From the NCBI RefSeq assembly GCF_003144245.1, contig NW_020289983.1, positions 248,001 through 312,000 of the forward strand: a DNA stretch of 64,000 nt. The letters are read 5' to 3'. The stretch's first letter is position 1, and each line of letters begins with the position of its first letter. The notes under the pieces were generated by a model. The model worked only from the letters and a program-made list of their open reading frames with translations. It was not told the DNA's origin and did no database searches. Of this stretch, positions 30,703 to 41,658 are shown piece after piece. The stretch comes from Jaminaea rosea (taxonomy: Eukaryota > Basidiomycota > Exobasidiomycetes > Microstromatales). A program made the position numbers and the translations under genes.

Positions 30703-30923
30703 CGTTGTTGTCGAGGTGTGTGGTGGTACGGTAGTCGAAGAATTCAGGCTTGCTGAATCCTCAACTTTTGCTCGCCTCTCCGGTCCGAACTTGGGTCCAA
30801 AGAACGGAACCAGCCACGCGAGCAGCGCATGGCCGTCGTGGAGCCTGGCTTGAGCGCTCGCTCGCCCGCATAACCGTCTTACCGTCTTGGCTTGCTCGCC
30901 ATCACTTCGCCACTACGCCCGCT
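30703..30923. promoter_or_regulatory. divergent RPA34/YOS9 promoter
   Basis: 221 bp between divergent start codons. No known element assigned. Confidence 0.45.
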
Positions 30924-33149
30924 ATGCTGTCGTGGCCAGCACTCGTTGCGCTCCTCGCTGCAGCCCTGCTGCAGCAGCAAGCGAACGCCGAGGCCCTCCG
31001 CTTGGGCAAGCCAGCCCCCTCGATGGGCCTCTCCTCTTCAACCTCGCAACGCTTTCCCTCTGACCTCCTCGCTCACCCGGCATTCAAGGTGCACTTCGAC
31101 GACCATGCCACTGTATCGAATGGAACGGCAGCAGCGTTGCTCGCAAAGAGTCGCGAAGCACATGGCAATGATTTAGCGGGATGGAATGCAGAGCAGGGAG
31201 AGAGGGGGGGGGAGCATCACATGCTCATCCATTCTTCGCCGCGCCAGGCGCACTTGTGCTCCCTTACTCCGCCAGCAATCTCGTCGTCCAGTGGCGCGTT
31301 TGATGTACAGTCTACTCTCACCCCAAGCACACTTCTCGCTGAGCGCCATCGCGTCATCGAGTCGGGACTGTCCCTCCTCGCACCACTCAAGGGGACCTGC
31401 CTCTACCATACTCTCGACTGGTTCACGTACTCTCTCTGCTTCGGTGAGAGCGTGCGCCAATTTAAAGCTATCGAGGCAACAGTGGGTCCGGGTAGAGTGC
31501 CAGCGCAAGACCCGAGCAAGGACGCATACGTGCTGGGCAGGTGGAAGAGGGAGCTAGAACGGGTAGGCGGGCGACTATGGGATGAACGCTCGGGGTCTAC
31601 CGCCGATCATCATGGTGGAGGCGATCTGTCCACTATGCGATCGCACGACGACCACGACTCCTCGAATGTCTCTTTGGACGACGACAATGGCACGGAGCTG
31701 ATGCAAACGATCCGCTTCGCCACCTCGGGCGTAGAGCAACGCTACCTCAGCCAAGTTTGGTCAGACGGCACCCTCTGCGACATCAACGATCAGCCGCGCA
31801 ACGTCGAGGTGCAGTACCACTGTAATCCTGCTCTTGTTCCGAGCTCGGCGAGCAGGATCGCGCTCATCAAGGAGACGACGACGTGTAGCTACGTGATGGT
31901 CGTGGAGACGGGTCTAATCTGTAGAGAAAGGGAATTGAAGGTTGGCAGGGAGCGTGGCGGGGAAAAGGGTGGAGAAGCGGTTGGGGAGTGGAAGTGTAGG
32001 CGCGTCGTCGAGGGCGAGACCGTCAAAGCTGTGGAGGATGCAGAGCGTGGTGAAGCGTCTCGAGGAGCTGATAAGGAGGATCGCCCCGTCGCAGAGCAGG
32101 AAACCTCGGCTCCTGCCGAAGAGGACCGCGACGCATACCTGCACACGACGAGCACATCACCCTGGCTTCCCTCCGCCGAAAACCCCACCGCCCTCAAGTC
32201 CGACGAGTATTACGCGCTGGACTGGGACGAAGAGGGCAACGCCCTTGTGGAGCCGATTGGCAGCTGGGCCGCCGATTGGATGCAGGCACAGGAAGAACAG
32301 GAGGCAGAGATGCGCGCTGCGGGGCGGGAGGAGGAGGGTGACCCAGAGGCGACGGCGAGGGAGCATTTGCAAGCGAGGCATAGAGCGGGCAAAAGGTTGA
32401 GAGAGCTGGTGGGACGGGGTGAGGGTCGGCGTGAGGGCGAAGCTCAAGGTGCTGGGCGAGAGGAGGGGCTGGAGGAATTGCTGTCGAAGATCCTCTTTGG
32501 AGGACAGGCGCAACAAGACGGAGCCGCTGTTGTTAATGACGGCGTCCGCGTCCACATACTCGATCAAGACGAGGCAGGGCAGCCTGTTGCTGGAGTAGCG
32601 GGACTACGTCGCGGCGAAGAAGGTGTTCCCATCGAGGCTCAAGATTTGCAAGCGGGCCTGGCTCGGGCAATCGAGTCGGAGCTCAACCGCATGAGAGGTA
32701 GAGCGAGCGGAGGGCAGGAGCAGCAGCAGCTAGAGCAAGCGCAAGCGCAGACACAAGACTCAACAGATTCAGCCGCCCAGAGCGTGATGGCGCAACGTCG
32801 CAAGGCGAGGCTCGACCGGCTAGCTGCGGCTCTCGTTGAGGGGATGCAGGGTCGCGGGGCTGAGGCGGACGGCGGCGGCGAGGAGGGAGGCGAGACTGTG
32901 CCTGCTGAAGGTGGAGCGGAGGAGCAACCTCAAGCCGCCCGCGTATTCGCAGAGCTCAATGCCCAAGCAAGGGGCCAGGCGTGGAGACCAAAGCCAGTCC
33001 CTGGTGCTCCGGGGCAGGTGGAGAGGGAAACCCTCGCAGAGAGGGCAGAGCGATTCTATCAAAATCGAGACGGGGATGGGGATGAGCAGGAGCAGAGTCA
33101 AGAGAGCGAGGCAAGTCATGGAGCGAGACGTGGGCACGATGAGCTGTGA
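30924..33149 (+). CDS. YOS9: OS-9 homolog, ER quality-control lectin
   Basis: An intronless frame of 741 residues from the ATG at 30924, chosen because it starts a clean signal peptide (SWPALVALLAAALLQQQANA). The MRH lectin domain spans about residues 157-333, with six cysteines in GTCLYHT, SLCFGES, GTLCDIN, YHCNP, TTCSYVMVV and GLICRE, enough for three disulfides. It binds trimmed N-glycans on misfolded proteins and hands them to the Hrd1 ubiquitin ligase for ERAD. The MRH domain is interrupted by a Asp/His/Ser-rich insert of about 50 residues. The C-terminal half is long, charged and Gln-rich. The protein ends exactly in HDEL, the ER retrieval signal, as in yeast Yos9. Confidence 0.9.
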   Translation: MLSWPALVALLAAALLQQQANAEALRLGKPAPSMGLSSSTSQRFPSDLLAHPAFKVHFDDHATVSNGTAAALLAKSREAHGNDLAGWNAEQGERGGEHHMLIHSSPRQAHLCSLTPPAISSSSGAFDVQSTLTPSTLLAERHRVIESGLSLLAPLKGTCLYHTLDWFTYSLCFGESVRQFKAIEATVGPGRVPAQDPSKDAYVLGRWKRELERVGGRLWDERSGSTADHHGGGDLSTMRSHDDHDSSNVSLDDDNGTELMQTIRFATSGVEQRYLSQVWSDGTLCDINDQPRNVEVQYHCNPALVPSSASRIALIKETTTCSYVMVVETGLICRERELKVGRERGGEKGGEAVGEWKCRRVVEGETVKAVEDAERGEASRGADKEDRPVAEQETSAPAEEDRDAYLHTTSTSPWLPSAENPTALKSDEYYALDWDEEGNALVEPIGSWAADWMQAQEEQEAEMRAAGREEEGDPEATAREHLQARHRAGKRLRELVGRGEGRREGEAQGAGREEGLEELLSKILFGGQAQQDGAAVVNDGVRVHILDQDEAGQPVAGVAGLRRGEEGVPIEAQDLQAGLARAIESELNRMRGRASGGQEQQQLEQAQAQTQDSTDSAAQSVMAQRRKARLDRLAAALVEGMQGRGAEADGGGEEGGETVPAEGGAEEQPQAARVFAELNAQARGQAWRPKPVPGAPGQVERETLAERAERFYQNRDGDGDEQEQSQESEASHGARRGHDEL

Positions 33150-34160
33150 GCTCAAGAGGTAGGCGTGTATCATAATACCATTGCGTTCGCCGATTGCGCC
33201 CGCCTTGTCTCTCTCCTTCTGAGTAGGCATCGTGGGGAAAGAAGACAAGAGCTGCCCTTCGCGTAGTCTGCAGAAGGTGAGTCTCCCTGGTCGGCGGTGC
33301 TATGTGCCGGACACAGGTGGCCACCAGCAGCGAGGGAACGGTTCGTCTGCTCGAATCCTTCGGAGCAGCATTCCGAGTGATTGTCGCCATCGCTCTTGCC
33401 GTCGCTCTTACGGTCACTCTCGCCTCTTTGTTGCTGCGCTCGGGCCGGCACGGAGCACCGTCGATGTTGGGCGCAATCTTTCTCGACGTATCACATCCGC
33501 TTTTGCCCTCGCGACGACGCTGGCGATGAGCTGGACGACACACGCTCGCAATCTTGTCATCCCTTCCATCTCTCCGTCTCTACCCCTCGTATCACCTCTC
33601 GCCCACTCCCCAACTCGCCTTCGCAGAGACCTCCGCAACTCACCACGCTGCCCGCGAGCCTTCGGCTCGCGGGCCTTCGGCTCGCGGGCCTTGATTCGCC
33701 AGTGAAGGCCAAAAGCACTCGCATCGCTGCCCCATTGTCTCTTCATCTTGCCTCGCCCTCTCTACTCGCACACCTGATGAAGATCAGGCAGGTCTCTGCC
33801 AAGGCGTAGAGGCGAGATCAGCATCAAGAGACCTTGCGAAGCACCACCATGCTACGCTACTGCTGTTGTGGAAACGGATACGCAAAGCTTATGGTAAGCT
33901 GCGCAGCAGATCAGTAGATTTGAGTCCGTGACTTCATGCTAAGCAAGCCTCCGTGGCCCCGCGTCTAGCGTTCCCCCTCCCTACAAGGTCGATCCACAAG
34001 CCATGGCAAGTGAAGCACATCGATTCAAAGTGATAAATCACAAGACAGGAAGCTGAAGAGGACACAAAGTCAGGCTCAAGAAGCTAGTTGGGCAAAGAGG
34101 GGGTCTGAGCGCAGGCTAGTCTAGCCCAGCCAAAGCTCAACAACCCAAAAGACCGACGCT
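33150..34160. other. intergenic, with one weak single-helix ORF
   Basis: About 1 kb without a supported gene. One 75-codon frame from an ATG at 33302 contains a hydrophobic stretch (FRVIVAIALAVALTVTLASLLL) that could be a membrane helix, but it has no homologue I know and no clear splice partners. A perfect hairpin and a 15-bp direct repeat lie at 33651-33688. Confidence 0.4.
33651..33692. repeat. GC-rich hairpin with a 15-bp direct repeat
   Basis: CCCGCGAGCC at 33651-33660 pairs perfectly with GGCTCGCGGG at 33664-33673 around a 3-nt loop. The unit CCTTCGGCTCGCGGG occurs twice back to back (33659-33673 and 33674-33688), followed by another CCTT. Confidence 0.8.
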
Positions 34161-35135
34161 ATGGCTACCGCAGAGTGGATGCGCGGAATATCGCCCCTCG
34201 AAGACCACGCCACTCCTACCACTGTCGTCATGAAAGCCCTCTCGAAGCAAGGAGTAGCTCAAGCGCTCGGGCAGGGCAAAAGCCTTGATCAACTTCCGTG
34301 ACGATCCGGGCCCCAGGTCGAAGCTGTGCAAGACGGTCAAGACAGCGGTGCGCAGACAGAAGGGCAACGACGAGCTTGCGCAGTACTACGCGGCCGGCTC
34401 CATTACGGACGACTCGTGAGTGTAGCTCGATGCTAGCGAGTCGCGCACAGCAGCCCTCAACTCACGCTCCATGACCGCACAACCTTCTCGCTCGCGGCCT
34501 GCGCCTAAGGCTTCGACCAGGTAAGCACAGAAGCATGTCAGTGTCACAGCGCCGCATGCCTGACCATCAGTCTCCCTGTTTTGCCTGCTCAGCCATCATC
34601 ACGTGCACAGGGACTTCAGGCCGCCGGTAGCGAGATCCAGCAAGACGTGAGGCAGCTCAGATGATGCAGTGCGCCCTCAGCGAGGGGCAGGGCCGATTCT
34701 CACTGATCATGCTGCTACTGCCGCCCTCATCGCGGTAGGACCCTAGACGATCCCTTCCACCGTCGCACTTCCCCGTGAGAACGCAGAGCTCATCTGACGT
34801 TCAAGTGAGGCAGTGTTGACACCCACTCCTCTTCGCCCCGCCGCTACACTGCACCGCTTTCTACGCCGGGTGCGTTGCATTCGCTCAGTGGCCCCTTCCT
34901 CTCCGGTCTTGGCCGCAAGGCCGTGAAAAGACGCGCAGATGCAGGCAAGACGGGAGATGAGCTGTCATCAAGGGCATGCGAATATCTCGATATGTCATTG
35001 CGATCAAGTCTCAATTCCCCTCGATCACCATCGGCAAGCTGTCTCAATCTCCGGCCTACCGTTACCCCCGCGAGCCCTCTCTGCTACGGTATTGTGGAAT
35101 CGAGCTGCCATCTTCAACAAGCCCTGCGGAAGTGC
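34161..35135 (+). pseudogene. decayed leftmost unit of the HNH-like array
   Basis: At 34161-34415 translated fragments (TAEWMRGISPLEDHATPTT and later KLCKTVKTAVRRQKGNDEL) resemble the segment ISEWAELEKKAPVTQADVLT and what follows it in the next unit. They end at a GTGAGT donor in the same phase as there. At about 35005-35135 a fragment with RYPREPSLLRYCGIELPSS resembles the C-terminal block of the other units. No CxxC core is recognisable between them, and the frame is broken more than once. It is a remnant, not an expressed gene. The alignment is by eye and weak in places. Confidence 0.45.
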
Positions 35136-35159
35136 CCATCTCCTGCAGCGCTGCCAGCA

Positions 35160-35573
35160 CATTCTCGCAGACAGCGTGGAGACGTGGTCGGAGCGAGCGG
35201 ATACCTGTCTGGGGGAGGGGACCTGCAAGTCAGTATGGGTCGGGCATGTTCCGGACGGATATAAGACAAAGATGCACAACCACGACAAGGCAGCAAGGCT
35301 GGCTCTCTTCGAAGGCATCCTCAGCAGGGCACAGGGCTCCCGCAGCCACACATTGGAGAGCTTCAGGCGCAGGTACCCGTAGCGGCACCCAAGCATCAAC
35401 AAGATACTAGACGCAGCCGAGGCTGCCCTTTCTGATCGCCGGCCCTTTCCCGCCCATCCGCCAGCTTTTCCTCCCCTCCTCTTCCCCAACGACGTCATCA
35501 AGCGTGACGCTGAAGTCGACGCAACTGTGTGTCAAGAAGATCTGGGGACGAGAAAGCAGCGTTGCGCGGGGCG
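35160..35573 (+). pseudogene. N-terminal remnant of the middle HNH-like unit
   Basis: Fragments ERADTCLGEG, VWVGHVPDGYKTK, SFRRRYP and FPPLLFPNDVIKRD match, in order, MRKDTCLASE, MWAGRCGDAKDDK, SFKRNWP and FPPTMFPNEARSD of the next unit. They are not in one continuous frame with the open part that begins at 35574. The intact gene at 35574 may therefore be a shortened survivor of a longer ancestor. Confidence 0.5.
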
Positions 35574-36877
35574 ATGAAGTTCTGGGGCACGCCAGGACTG
35601 AGGGCGGCTTACAAGGACGTGCAGCTCACGCACATCCTGAACGCTCTCTTGCTCCAAGACATGAACAAGGCTGGATGGCGCCAGCTTAAAGGGCTGACGG
35701 CGAGCGAGCGTGGGGGCGCAATTAGCGAGTGGGCAGAGCTCGAGAAGAAAGCCCCCGTCACCCAGGCGGACGTCTTGACTCCGGAGCAGCTTCAGCGTCT
35801 CGCGGCCAAATCCAAGGAGAGAGGCAAAGAATTCCGGGCAAAGGGGACGTTCGCCAACGCACCGCTCAAGGCGACGCACGCGGCGAAGGGGACGATTCTC
35901 AGGGTGCTGTGCCGTGGCGCCGCCGACAAAGAAGGCCCCAAGAAGGGCAGCCAGGAGTCGGAGCAGCTGGTCGGGTGAGTGACAGCGCATCTACGTGTAA
36001 GGACAAAGTCGTAGTAATTCGTGAGGAGACAAGAGAGGAGGACGAGTCTACACGGGAGATAGGAGCGAGGCGACGGAACGGACGGTCCGACTGCACACTA
36101 GTACGCCCGCTGACGGTACAATCGCTCACTGGCCTCGCTCTCTCTTGTCTGCGCGCTTGTAGGACCCTCTACGCGGCCTTCCGCCACGTCATCGGCGGGG
36201 CCCACTGCGAGTACTGCGGCGTCGAGCTGACGATGCTGCAGCTCACAAAGGAGGGCGTCAGGCAGCGCAAGGCCTCTGGCGCTGTGGGAAGAGCCAACTT
36301 CCCTTTCAACCTCTCGCTCGACCGTCGAGACCCTGGGCGCTTGGGAGGGCACTATGCCCTGAACAACCTGGCGGTGGTGAGTTGAGCCCGACGCACAGCC
36401 TGCGACTGGCCGCAAATGACGCACATCTCCTCGCTCCTCTCCTCGCAGTGCTGCAAGGGCTGTGACATGACCAACTTCGGCTTCAAAGTCGACAACTTCT
36501 TGGTCATGATGGGCAAGATCGTCGACGAGGCCGACACGCGGGTCGACGACAAAGGCAACCTCTGCTCTCCTCCTCGGGCCCGCCCGCACATTGGGCCGCG
36601 AAACGACGTGTACCTGCGGCAATGGGCCGAGCAGCGTATGTCATCGAAGGAGAATCTCACAAGCAGGCAGCGGAAAGCAGGCAACATGACGGCCGGCGAT
36701 CTGTACAGTCTCGCTCGGGAGCGGTACGCCGGAAACGGCCATTACTTCGACGTCTCCGGTCTTGTCGTTCCGCTCTGCCTCGCCGACGTCAACCGTGTCA
36801 GCTCTGCTCATAAATACGATCGGGACAGAAGGTGCCAAGTACTATCGAATGCGCAAGGACACCTGCCTGGCTTCTGA
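35574..36877 (+). CDS. HNH-like zinc-domain protein, unknown role
   Basis: Three exons, 35574-35974, 36163-36376 and 36449-36877, with canonical GT-AG ends, give an open frame of 347 residues. The core is HCEYCGVEL at about residues 148-156, then NFPFNLSLDRRDPGRLGGHY, NN and CCKGC, about 75 residues in all. This is the CxxC ... DR ... N ... CxxC layout of zinc-ribbon HNH / endonuclease VII-like (beta-beta-alpha metal) domains. The usual catalytic His of HNH is not obvious, Asp-Arg standing in its place, so nuclease activity is uncertain. A C-terminal block (YAGNGHYFDVSGLVVPL) is shared with the neighbouring units. I know no named fungal gene of this build. The start at 35574 is the first ATG in the open frame; conserved sequence upstream is out of frame, so the gene may be truncated. 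Confidence 0.5.
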
Positions 36878-38612
36878 GACGATACCGTGGTCTGAGCAAC
36901 ACCGAATGTGGGCTGGCCGCTGCGGCGATGCAAAGGACGACAAACAGACTCGCATCAAGGCACGCAAGAAGCTTCTGACAGAATGCGAGGCCGCGACAGT
37001 GTCGGTAAGGGTGCGGTGGACCGCCCTCTGACACTAGCTTCCGCGCACGCTATGAGCGACACTGCTGACTCAAGCCTCGTTCGCAACAGTTCAAGAGGAA
37101 CTGGCCCCGCTCGTCCGTCCACGAGTCCGTGTGGCAAGTCGTCGAGCTGGCCTCGCGATTCGCACACAACTCCGGTCCGCCCATCCCAATCAGGTCCGTC
37201 TTCCCTCCCACGATGTTCCCTAACGAGGCCAGGAGTGACAGGGTCGACACGGAGAAGTGCGCCGCGCATTTGCCCACTCAGCTCCCGGCGCTGCGTGCTG
37301 CGATGAATCGAATGGGCAGGGAGGCCTTCCGTGCGGCCTACGGGCACCACCAAATCACGTACATGTTGGACACCATCCTTGAAGCCGACCCACACAGGCC
37401 GAAATGGTCTGAATTGCGCTCCATCGATGACGAAATCCGACTGGACGGTATTTGCAGGTCAGAAAGCAGGATGTCTTCGACGAGCGCCAACTGAAGGCCT
37501 TCGGAGACGCTTCGCGCCTGCGTGGACAAGACATGAGGGCTCGCGAGTCGGCCTTCACCAATGTCTACGAGGGTGCGAGGTACTTCCTGCTGGTCGCGTG
37601 CCAAGACGCGGCCAAGCGCGACGGCCTGAAGCGGAGCAGCGACGAATGGCGGAGGAAGACCTAGTGAGCTCAGTCTGTCTCGTCATGACCACGCGCGCTC
37701 GCTAATGCCTCAATCTTTGTTGGTCCGACAGGGACTCGTACGCTTACTTCAAGTTCGTGCTGGCAGGTACCCGCAAGTGCAAGCACTGCGGCTCTGTGCT
37801 GGCCATGCACAGGCTCAGCCGGGTTGAACGCCAGATGAGGAAGGACGAGAGGATCCGGGAACAAGCGAACTTCCCGTTCAACGTCTCACTGGATCGCCGA
37901 GTACCCGGACGCCTGGACGGCAAGTACTGCGTGATTGATCAAGGTCACAACGTCGACGTCGTCTGCAAGGGCTGCAACTTCGTCAAGAGCGGCTTCCCCA
38001 CGGACAGTCTCATCATGCGATTATGAAAAATCGCCAAAGACGCAACGGTGCAACTCGACGCCAAGGCCTTCCTCGTCGCCAAGCCCTCCTCCTACAAACT
38101 CACGAAGGCAGACAAAGCGTGGCTGGCGGAATGGGCGAGGGCACGGGGGGAGACCCTGAGGGCCAACCATCGTGGGACTTGGAAGAATGGTGACTTGACG
38201 AGCGCACAGCTCCTCAAGATCGTATCATCGCGGTGAGTGCTGTGCTATGCATCACACGCGTGTCTCCTCACTGACCGCCCATACTCTCTCTTCACGTCAA
38301 CATGCGTTGCCATCGCCAGGTACGTGGGCAATGGACTCTACCGAGATCCGAGCGGACTCGAACTGCCTTTGCACTTCGCCGACATCGACAGGTTAAACCC
38401 ATTTGACTAGTACTATGCCAACAACGCTCGCCTCCTCTACCGTCCATTCAAGTACCTCCGAGGCAATTCAGAGAGCGACGAGCACCTTGAAATCGGTCCT
38501 CGCCTTTTTAAAACTAGTGGTGGTTGCGAACCTACTATGCGAACGCAGCGAGAAACCTGTTACGTATTCTCGCTTGAACCTGCCTAGTCCCTGTGATTGT
38601 ACATTGATTCTT
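36816..38612 (+). pseudogene. decayed right-hand unit of the HNH-like array
   Basis: This unit holds all parts in order. They are MRKDTCLASE and MWAGRCGDAKDDK (36850-37015), SFKRNWPRSS after an intron-like gap, FPPTMFPNEARSD, FRAAYGHHQITYMLD and FDERQLKAFGDASRL. The core follows near 37780: KCKHCGSVL, NFPFNVSLDRRVPGRLDGKY, HN and VVCKGCN. Then come a charged helical part, a further intron and YVGNGLYRDPSGLELPL near 38330. The frame is interrupted at several points, so no full-length protein is predicted. The core residues are nevertheless well kept, which suggests that decay is recent relative to the duplication. Sequence like the DTCL block of a further unit follows at about 38530-38600. Confidence 0.55.
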
Positions 38613-38820: not shown

Positions 38821-41129
38821 TTACTTCGCAGCTCTCGCTTCGGCCTGCCATCCGGCGTGCTCAGTGTGGATCGCTTGCGCTCTAGTGGGAAGAGAAGCGT
38901 GTCATGAGTCAGCAAATGAAAACAATGATCGAGAATGGACAGATGGAGCTTACCTTCCGCTTGGGTCGCTAGGAACGCCCTGTTGAGGCGGAGACGGCGA
39001 AGTAGGAGGCAAGCGGTGGGGGCCAATGGTCAGCAATAGAATCGGTCGCCGGTGCTAGGCAGATCAGAATCAACCGAGTAAACTTACCCAGCTGCTCTTC
39101 GGAATCCACTTCTTGACCGTCGATGCTGCTGCTGAAGAAGGGAAATGGGCCTCGAAGAGCTCTCTGTAATGGTAGGCTTCCTTGGTGTCGGGGGTGAGAT
39201 GAGGGAATCGCTCGGCGGCTTTCTGCATCTGCTCGTCGCTGATGACCTTCTCAGCATGCTCTCGCAGCGTATCTATATGCTTATGGCCCACTCCGTCGGA
39301 GAACTGGGTTTTCGAAAGCATGAGGTTGAGAGAGAGAGAGAGAGAGAGATGGTGATCAGCGAGATGCTCGACGAGGAAGGCGAAGACGTGAGAAAAGCCG
39401 GTGGCTCGTGCGTTGCACCGAGCGCTCGCGTGGCCACTTCCGCCCACTCCAAGCCGTGGCTGCGAATACGAGCTATAGATCGTCGTTCGCTCGCTGCCTC
39501 ACTCACCTGCTCCTTTTGTCTCCAAAGAATTGAGTCGGGCAGGTAAGGCTTGTCATCGCCCTCAGGCGTAAGGGCGAAAGCCTCGCGCAGAATGTGTTTC
39601 TCCATAATTGGCCTGCCGTTCTTGTCCATAGCCTGCTCCTTGCCCTTGGCGAACATTTTCTCCTTTGCATCGATGTCGAGGGAGACTTTGACCATTTGCT
39701 TGTCGAGGAACGGAACTCTGGCCTCCAGGCCCCAGCTCATCGTTGACTTGAAGACGGGGTGGGGGGGAGGGGGGTTAGGCGGCGTGAGTACTACCGCTCA
39801 CAGTGCTGATCACGCGCATCGACTCACCTTGTTAGCTCGCAAGCAGTCTGCAGTGTGCAAGTTCTTGACTCGACTGACACACTCTGAATGAAACTCATCA
39901 GCGTTAGGAGCGGCGTGGAAGTAGAGGTATCCGCCGTACAATTCGTCTGACCCCTCGCCGGAGAGAACCATCTTGACTCCCATAGCCTTGATCTTGCGGG
40001 AGAGAAGGTACATGGGGGTGGAGGCGCGGACAGTGGTCACATCGAAGGTCTCGAGGTGGTAGATGACGTCGGAGATAGCATCAAGCGCCTCTTGGGTAGT
40101 GAAGGTGTGCTCGTGATGGACGGTCCCCAGGTACTCGGCGGCCTGACGCGCAGCAATGAGGTCTGGCGCGCCCGGCAACCCGATAGAGAACGAATGCAGA
40201 CGTGGCCAAGCTGCCAAGGTCTCCATCTCATCCTGAGGGATATCATTACCAGCAGCTGCCTGTCGCGAGGCTTTCCTCTGCTCATACCGCTGCCTTTGCG
40301 CCTCTGCGACCTTGTTCGTCTCGCGCGCCGCAATGGCCGCGATCAAGCTCGAGTCCAGACCACCTGAGAGCAAAACGCCATAGGGAACCTCGGACATGAG
40401 ACGCTTGCGCACAGCAGCTTCGAGCGTCTCGCGGATCAACTTCAAGTCCGCGGGTGTAGTCGGACGAGGAGCACCCTCGGCATCATCGTTGATCCAGCGC
40501 GGGTTGTAGTAGCGTTGCAGTTCTTGGCCCTGAGGCTTGGAGCTGTCCCAGTAGTGTCCAGGAGGGAAGCCGTGGATCTCGTCGCATTCGCCTTCAAGGG
40601 CCTTGAGCTCGGAGGAGACCCAGACAGCGCCGGGGACCTTTGAGGAGCGACCGTAGTAGAGGGTCGTGATGCCGATGGGGTCGCGGGCGGCAATCATGCG
40701 CGAGGGAGTGACGCTAGTGTCGACGAGAGTGAAAGAGAACATGCCGTCCAGGAGAGAGGCGAATGGCGTAGCCTCCTCGCCCTTCTCCTCGGCAGCCTTT
40801 TGCTCGCCGTAGAGGTGCAACAGGACCTCGCAGTCCGAGTGAGTCTTGAATGAGGCGTTGGGGTCCTTGAGGTTCTTGCGGAGGAGGCGATGGTTGTAGA
40901 TCTCGCCATTGACGGCGAGCACGAGCTTACCATCCTCGCTGACGAGGGGCTGGGCGCCCGTGTCGACGCCTACGATGGCCAAGCGCTCGTGGCAGAGTAC
41001 CGAGTCTTCAGTGACGACGCAGCCACTCCAGTCGGGGCCGCGATGACGCTGGCAGCGACTCAATTGGAGGGCTCGGCCGCGATACGAGGCCGGGTCAGGG
41101 ATGCGGTGAACGCCAAAGATGCCGCACAT
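38821..41129 (-). CDS. ASN: asparagine synthetase (glutamine-hydrolysing)
   Basis: Five exons on the reverse strand, 41129-39828, 39746-39507, 39303-39088, 38979-38954 and 38881-38821, encode 614 residues. The N-terminal Ntn glutaminase begins MCGIFGVHR, with Cys2 as nucleophile, and includes RHRGPDWSG and NGEIYNH. The synthetase domain has the PPi loop [25 protein letters not shown] and [12 protein letters not shown]. The enzyme makes asparagine from aspartate, ATP and glutamine in the cytosol. Exon 4 is only 26 nt; with exon 5 it gives the conserved tail [16 protein letters not shown], found only when both short exons are spliced. Intron 2 carries a (GA)n run at about 39328-39349, a pyrimidine tract on the sense strand. 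Divergent from RSP5 across about 530 bp. Confidence 0.95.
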
Positions 41130-41658
41130 GTTGGAGCGGCAGCGCGAGATGAAGTTGAAGACGATGTGTTGGTGATAAGGAGGAAGGGCCGGTCGTCAAA
41201 GGAAAACAAGAAGAACCGGTCTTCGCACCTCGCCCTCGGAGTCATGCGATCGGTCCTAGACTAGCCCCCCCTTCGTCGCTGCAAGGCTGCAGGAATGCGA
41301 GCGGGCACAGAGCAGCGCCGAGCACTCAACGCTGTGGGAGCCACGCGCCGCCAAGGGGTCGGATCGGGAGTAAGGGCGGGCGGAATTGTCTCTGGCGGGC
41401 GAGCGGGCGAAAGGATGAGGCTGTGACTAGGTGGCGCGGGTCTGAACGTGGTTAGGCAGGCAAATGGCCCGAGACGCATGGCAGCGAGCGGTCAGCGGCG
41501 ACGACGTCGACGACGAGGGCGGCGATACCATTGGATCGAACTCAACCTCGTACTCATCCACTCCACTCGGCCGTCCCTCCAATTCCCTTGTAGCAAGGAC
41601 TAGGAGTCAGAGCTCTCCTCGCCTTCGCATCCTCGCTCTTAGCCCCTCACGCCCAGCC
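41130..41658. promoter_or_regulatory. divergent ASN/RSP5 promoter
   Basis: 529 bp between divergent start codons. An open frame from 41464 continues into RSP5, but the C2 domain starts properly at the ATG at 41659, so the segment is taken as promoter and leader. No Gcn4-type TGACTCA site stands out. Confidence 0.5.

Follow-up and report, generated by a model that had tools for sequence, protein, structure and literature searches.

The 64,000-nucleotide window analyzed here (Jaminaea rosea assembly GCF_003144245.1, contig NW_020289983.1, positions 248,001–312,000 of the forward strand) contains two units of a gene family with HNH nuclease-like modules, located at about 35.36–36.88 kb and 37.09–38.48 kb. 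The units are numbered 2 and 3 after an original prediction, made from the sequence alone, which had placed a unit 1 at 34161–34900. Other loci are named by contig and position (C9 is the contig of the window; k stands for kb). The locus is likely a tandem pair of degenerating genes belonging to a divergent, dispersed nuclear family, whose members would carry two phage/PacI-type HNH modules per chain and are predicted nucleases. Introns of the genes studied were of the GT-AG type.

Unit 2 begins with an interrupted N-terminal region (35362–35553, +), which contains an in-frame TAG at 35380–35382 and changes frame before a start at 35574. This stretch could be aligned with the N-terminal region of unit 3 (gapped score 70; maximum of 200 shuffles, 49), and 35386–35493 matched 37120–37227 with a score of 48 in the translated self-comparison. 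It is followed by an open spliced frame of 347 residues consisting of three exons (35574–35974, 36163–36376, and 36449–36877, all +) separated by GT-AG introns. The first exon encodes N-terminal sequence up to a GT donor at 35975, and 35559–35696 matched 37288–37425 with a score of 82. The middle exon carries the first part of module 1 (CxxC...NFPFNLSLDRR...Y...N; family profile E 2.6e-20), in which the positions of PacI D92, R93, and Y100 are kept. The last exon carries the second zinc knuckle of module 1, where the N113 position of PacI is occupied by D, a linker, and the zinc-free, HNH-like module 2 (36602–36874, +; family profile E 4.2e-29, the unit itself being a profile row), with N at the D92 position and G at the N113 position. 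Since a homologous N-terminal stretch with a stop and a frame change precedes it, the 347-residue frame may have been shortened from a longer ancestor.

Unit 3 begins with an N-terminal region (37090–37440, +) that matches unit 2. A frame shift lies between 37440 and 37458, and the region continues in another frame up to a phase-2 donor (37458–37663, +); the match of 35757–35843 to 37458–37544 scored 45, which taken alone is at background level. Module 1 forms one open stretch (37733–38023, +; family profile E 1.1e-30, the unit itself being a row) that keeps D-R-Y-N and all four Cys and is ended by a stop at 38024–38026. A linker (38126–38239, +; family profile E 1.4e-5) leads to module 2 (38309–38482, +; family profile E 1e-20), in which one in-frame stop and a K at the N113 position were found. 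With the frame change at about 37440–37458, one stop closing module 1, and a further stop within module 2, unit 3 is a pseudogene. Units 2 and 3 agree in the position and phase (2) of their first intron. Unit 3 lacks the second intron of unit 2, and an apparent GT-AG intron ahead of module 2 in unit 3 is not found in unit 2. The exon order and donor phase that had been described as shared could thus be confirmed for the first intron but not for the other two. The description of one intact unit between broken neighbors also stood in part: the spliced frame is open and unit 3 is broken, but unit 2 is itself preceded by an interrupted homologous stretch.

Translated self-comparison revealed four matches between units 2 and 3 with scores of 125, 82, 78, and 69 at spacings of 1572, 1729, 1596, and 1512, compared to best scores of 65 and 53 in two reversed controls. 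On non-overlapping stretches, the gapped protein score was 264 (maximum of 50 shuffles, 82) and the nucleotide score was 253, which none of 200 shuffles equalled (maximum 170). An earlier permissive nucleotide scoring failed to separate even these two units (1 of 100 shuffles as good), and the ungapped nucleotide repeats between them are short and weak. The latter observation would suit an array that arose by chance or artefact and reflects no real family. This explanation is extremely improbable, as the protein and gapped nucleotide matches exceed the controls, dispersed copies occur in the genome, and phage matches were obtained independently; it was refuted for units 2 and 3 and accepted for unit 1. 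Codon positions of units 2 and 3 differed 85, 63, and 91 times over 174 codons, too evenly to make a claim about selection.

The original prediction counted three repeats, of which two were found. For the claimed first unit (34161–34900, +), the profiles of modules 1 and 2 gave nothing better than E 18 between 33.4 and 35.4 kb, compared to main profile matches of E 1e-20 to 1.1e-30 in units 2 and 3, both of which are profile rows. Gapped protein comparison of 33.5–35.14 kb scored 67 against unit 2 (maximum of 30 shuffles, 73) and 69 against unit 3 (shuffle maximum 84). Leaning towards a first unit were short matches with unit 2 (27 nt at 78%, 26 nt at 73%, and 25 nt at 72%) at unequal spacings of 1424, 1583, and 1241, and a nucleotide score against unit 2 that was reached by 1 of 100 shuffles under permissive scoring. 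Under stricter scoring the value was 125, with 3 of 200 shuffles as good, and the match lay inside the pyrimidine-rich intron at 36090–36154; in both nucleotide tests the unit 2 and 3 stretches overlapped by 51 bases. Despite these short repeats and two borderline nucleotide tests, a third unit at 34.16–34.9 kb was rejected on the module profiles and the gapped protein comparison. Self-comparison gave the expected off-diagonal protein matches for units 2 and 3 (spacings 1512–1729) but left unit 1 unsupported. A Pfam match to HrpB4 in the open reading frame (ORF) at 34927–35382 (E 0.001, under the curated cut-off) was taken as chance.

The zinc core of module 1 (CxxC...NFPFN-SLDRR...CxxC) is as originally described. 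The architecture was incomplete in that description, since a second, zinc-free HNH-like module had been missed. Comparison of copies across the genome revealed this second conserved block downstream of the zinc module. In most rows it shows a conserved G followed by x-D-R, Y, N, and a last N; the block covers 36602–36874 in unit 2 and 38126–38239 plus 38309–38482 in unit 3. The module 1 profile also matched module 2 of C8:604k, C15, C17, and C7:379k (E 2e-5 to 2e-4), and the module 2 profile matched the module 1 region of C15 (E 9e-5). Comparison of module 1 with module 2 by hhalign gave 76.3% with all rows and 40.4% without C5:772k. The two modules probably represent an internal duplication.

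According to one report (PMC3765158), the usual His of HNH enzymes is replaced by Arg in PacI, with a site consisting of H42-R93-Y100-N113, and a review (PMC4081073) describes a metal bound by Asp and Asn and a Tyr positioned as general base. Joint alignment with PacI revealed complete D92-R93-Y100-N113 in four of the ten module 1 rows (C9 unit 3, C8:604k, C15, and C5:772k) and in seven of the twelve module 2 rows (C8:604k, C7:711k, C5:772k, C6, C17, C7:379k, and C15). Three of the eight copies aligned in both modules have it twice (C8:604k, C15, and C5:772k), and among the four window modules it is complete only in unit 3 module 1. All four zinc Cys are present in 8/10 module 1 rows (exceptions C5:772k and C10:110k) and in 0/12 module 2 rows. 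The position of the HNH His is occupied by Arg in nine of the ten module 1 rows, by Gln in one, and by Arg in all twelve module 2 rows; in module 1 of C7:711k the Tyr is displaced by one place. Viral rows kept D, Y, and N in 15/15, with R in 13 and K in 2. As the phage HNH profile matches PacI, the Asp-Arg pair is interpreted as a PacI-type active site rather than a lost one. The earlier HNH-like call, with Asp-Arg replacing His, is upheld by the phage HNH profiles, the PacI link, and the D-R-Y-N positions, and more weakly by the fold comparison.

A profile of eight phage HNH proteins was compared to both modules using hhalign, with 40 column shuffles per module and reversed profiles as controls. 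Without C5:772k, module 2 gave 93.4% (E 2.4e-7) and module 1 gave 95.0% (E 3.9e-8), compared to ≤0.7% for the shuffles and 0.7 and 0.2% for the reversed profiles, indicating homology of both modules to phage HNH proteins at the level of the family. In a tblastn search, module 2 of C5:772k matched 234 of 50,697 phage records at E ≤10, of which 91 cover ≥80% of the query; the best E was 4e-5, and 2 fell below 1e-3 among the best 40 of the 234 matches. Annotations among the phage matches listed were hypothetical protein, endonuclease, HNH endonuclease, and anti-sigma factor. Among PHROGs, module 2 of C5:772k matched the endonuclease phrog_3322 with E 6.1e-11, and four further copies matched it with E 2.4e-7, 1.5e-6, 7.1e-6 (two stretches), and 1.7e-5; C15:235k did so with two stretches. 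Further matches were those of unit 2 module 1 to the phage HNH endonuclease phrog_16726 (E 0.0022), C8:604k module 2 to the HNH endonuclease phrog_3118 (E 0.0034), and the C8:604k module 1 frame to phrog_1035 (E 0.0029). Searched against the PDB, the phage profile matched PacI with E 9.2e-7, which was the sole match at E ≤0.01.

Scanning of the family pieces against Pfam and NCBIfam gave no match above the curated cut-offs. HNH_5 of Pfam reached E 0.053 with 13.9 bits against a cut-off of 27.5, and the family is placed outside the canonical HNH group (HNH_5 and kin) by its score under the curated value and its lack of a His general base. The family had been called undescribed, which is correct for Pfam and NCBIfam but not for phages, where phrog_3322 matches several copies. 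Together with phrog_3118 and phrog_1035, phrog_3322 resembles the family in a helical lead, the S-x-D-R-I-D, G-Y, N, and N-x-x-K pattern, and the profile matches to several copies, whereas the family additionally has introns and an N-terminal region, and some copies have acidic tails. The D-[RK]..Y..N..N pattern occurred once in 28 of 30 phage and viral frames, was absent from one, and occurred twice in one, compared to twice in C15:235k; in the lone double frame the second occurrence lies in a Lys/Asn-rich lead, as judged by eye. Canonical zinc-ribbon HNH enzymes (Gme HNH 4H9D, Hpy99I, and Cas9 HNH) share the strand-strand-helix order predicted here but differ in having a His general base where the family has Arg. 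PacI (PDB 3LDY, 3M7K) aligns with module 1 over D92-R93-Y100-N113 and the surrounding Cys4 site. It differs in being a homodimer (PMC4081073) of 142-residue chains, whereas the family has two modules per chain, the second without zinc.

Endonuclease VII has a Cys4 zinc plus an HNH-like core with a DHxH-type motif. The first two features are shared with the family, but the DHxH-type motif is lacking, and Endonuclease VII scored below phrog_3322 wherever both matched one piece. Its PHROGs matches were confined to E 0.003–0.2 (best phrog_1035, 0.003–0.005), with no match in Pfam. Contrary to the kinship first proposed, Endonuclease VII does not appear to be the closest relative; phrog_3322 is the stronger match. 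Searches with short exact peptide patterns of C15:235k in IMG/VR and prokaryote genomes revealed no relatives, the search for two-module proteins being thus limited to those patterns, and none were found in IMG/VR with query A1 or C5:772k module 2. The phage tblastn with C15:235k gave one match (E 2), and a C7:379k piece (query one residue short) gave none. A literature search on such a family in fungi or eukaryotes gave nothing relevant among the matches listed.

The structure of unit 3 module 1 was modeled using AlphaFold2 together with 15 viral relatives, giving a pLDDT of 67.6 and a strand-strand-helix order. Foldseek comparison of this model to the PDB gave 71 matches at E ≤10, led by Cas9 HNH domains (best E 0.045), with the Gme HNH enzyme at rank 11. 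The predicted fold is consistent with the HNH-like call, more weakly than the profiles.

Several results weigh against a two-module, PacI-type nuclease family. With the two window units alone, hhalign gave 72.2% (module 1) and 8.5% (module 2), so the link of the window units themselves to phages runs through their paralogues. The last exon of unit 2 with module 2 had no PHROG match, no HNH family was found in PHROGs for the module 2 frames of C10:413k, C7:711k, and C7:717k, and C17:379k matched phrog_3322 at E 0.026. PacI was the top PDB match of both module profiles, at weak values (module 1: E 0.017 for the whole sequence and 0.68 for the best stretch; module 2: E 0.23). The moderate unit 3 module 1 model (pLDDT 67.6) had 0 Foldseek matches at E ≤0.001, ribosomal chains appeared from rank 14, PacI was not among the best 50 of its 71 matches, and the model is not independent of the profile evidence because phage HNH rows were used in it. 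The model of unit 2 module 2 was poor (pLDDT 58.4, last 41 residues <50). Moreover, among the eight copies for which both modules were aligned, five miss a catalytic residue in one module or both.

Such losses could also mean a retired nuclease fold, in which the HNH scaffold is kept for nucleic-acid or protein binding and DNA cleavage is gone, an alternative we regard as tenable though rather doubtful. In unit 2, neither module retains all metal-ligand positions (N113 lost in module 1; D92 and N113 in module 2), C10:413k has lost the D in both, and the phage relatives include an annotated Srd anti-sigma factor and decoys of a host sigma factor. In contrast, C8:604k, C15:235k, and C5:772k keep D-R-Y-N in both modules at 14–42% identity to the unit 2 rows. 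As a counter-example C5:772k is limited, with two zinc Cys missing and a stop between its modules.

The genome searched comprises 16.6 Mb in 21 contigs. A copy-number count, proposed earlier as a check, was carried out by protein searches and revealed at least 14 loci beyond the window pair (one borderline) plus one relic; these counts are lower bounds, as the search scored the best candidates only. The loci were C8:607k (N-terminal part only, E 1.7e-22), C7:717k (E 2.8e-20), C5:814k (E 1.4e-15), C6:662k (E 1.5e-9), C10:413.6k (E 1.7e-8), C7:379k (E 2e-8), C7:711k (E 5.7e-8), C5:772k (E 1.2e-7), C17:379k (E 3.6e-7), C10:360k (E 5e-7), C15:235k (E 8.8e-7), C10:110.6k (module 1 seen, E 0.003), C8:604k (E 0.007), and the borderline C19:101k (E 0.0165, readable module 1); the relic is a module 2 at C5:813.2k. 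Weak loci at C1:1154k (E 0.24), C9:50k (E 0.15), and C3:654k (E 0.056) were rejected after reading. The pattern-only loci C1:2020k, C2:1027k, and C5:922k were also rejected: there were 6 pattern matches against 8 in the reversed control, and neither module profile matched them.

In C15:235k both modules lie within one 262-residue frame. Two open frames of C8:604k (370 and 200 residues) can be joined by a GT-AG intron, the exons of C7:711k appear open as judged by reading, and in C5:772k a stop separates the modules. Long acidic C-terminal tails occur in the C8:604k copy (L029 1183–1400, −) and the C17:379k copy (L058 1156–1400, −). Four groups form pairs of near neighbors on the same strand, separated by about 1.2 to 7 kb: C9 (the pair in the window), C8 (604/607k), C7 (711/717k), and C5 (813/814k). 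The module trees placed C7:711k and C7:717k together (support 92/94 for module 1 and 99/98 for module 2). The window units grouped with C10:413k at 81/96 in the module 1 tree, a group absent from the module 2 tree; the trees were poorly resolved, with 2 of 16 inner branches well supported. The earlier picture of a family that expands and decays in place fits, but the family is mostly dispersed.

Scattered, divergent, and partly broken copies would also be expected of a selfish element, that is, of homing endonucleases or those carried by transposons, which spread by making cuts in chromosomes, and the PacI-like HNH genes of lactococcal phages have been interpreted as likely homing enzymes (PMC12724721). 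We consider this origin unlikely. No near-identical DNA copy of unit 2 was found in the genome, and as its sole match is unit 2 itself, it shows no sign of recent mobility; moreover, the copies carry introns of the spliceosomal type. Genome-defence or self/non-self genes under birth-and-death evolution are given an equally low probability, the points in their favor being the close same-strand pairs with decay, the strong divergence, and the nuclease-like domains.

Under the preferred reading of a dispersed family of two-module, PacI-type HNH nucleases, a complete protein would be a single chain that carries two HNH (beta-beta-alpha-metal) modules behind its N-terminal region, with a Cys4 zinc in module 1 and no zinc in module 2. 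By analogy to the mechanism reported for PacI, each intact module would hold one divalent metal ion through Asp and Asn, Arg would stand at the position of the His of other HNH enzymes, and Tyr would act as the general base. A single polypeptide with two sites could match the PacI homodimer, so that both DNA strands are cut; intact copies would cleave DNA with their two sites cooperating. The family would turn over through local and dispersed duplication followed by decay, and both window units bear the marks of decay; unit 2 probably lacks a working second site. A more far-reaching version, in which the family came from a phage- or bacterium-like donor in the distant past as single-chain, two-site PacI-type nucleases and a role in conflict (drive, homing, or defence against foreign DNA) explains the repeated duplication and decay, is quite improbable.

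The array is thus smaller and more decayed than claimed, and the family is predicted from its sequences to be related to phage/PacI HNH nucleases, with two modules per protein and dispersed copies; the curated libraries searched missed it. A strongly diverged family unseen by Pfam and NCBIfam thereby gains a fold hypothesis, a putative active site, and candidate intact copies in C15:235k and C8:604k. If these copies cut DNA, they would belong to a eukaryotic multi-copy family whose chains each bear two PacI-type sites, and one would have to ask how the host genome is protected and why duplication and death continue.

Other features were observed near the copies. Each of the two C5 copies is followed downstream by a frame with a GDG-x-CQ-x-RA box (L056 591–1175, − / L109 5515–5997, −; L020 571–1092, −). 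The box is reminiscent of OTU cysteine proteases, and the Pfam values were E 0.32 (OTU) for the L109 frame and E 0.093 (Peptidase_C65) for the L020 frame; Pfam gave nothing for the longer L056 frame, and the PDB gave no match for the L109 5515–5997 frame. Another frame (L109 4284–4634, −) contains an LGYWLGDG stretch reminiscent of inteins or LAGLIDADG-type homing endonucleases; it gave no Pfam or PDB match. The window pair is flanked by a PRKCSH-domain frame (30735–33149, +) on one side and an asparagine synthase gene (39810–41195, −) on the other. Between the PRKCSH gene and the pair, at 33650–33689, a repeated CCTTCGGCTCGCGGG stretch forms an 80% complementary inverted repeat.

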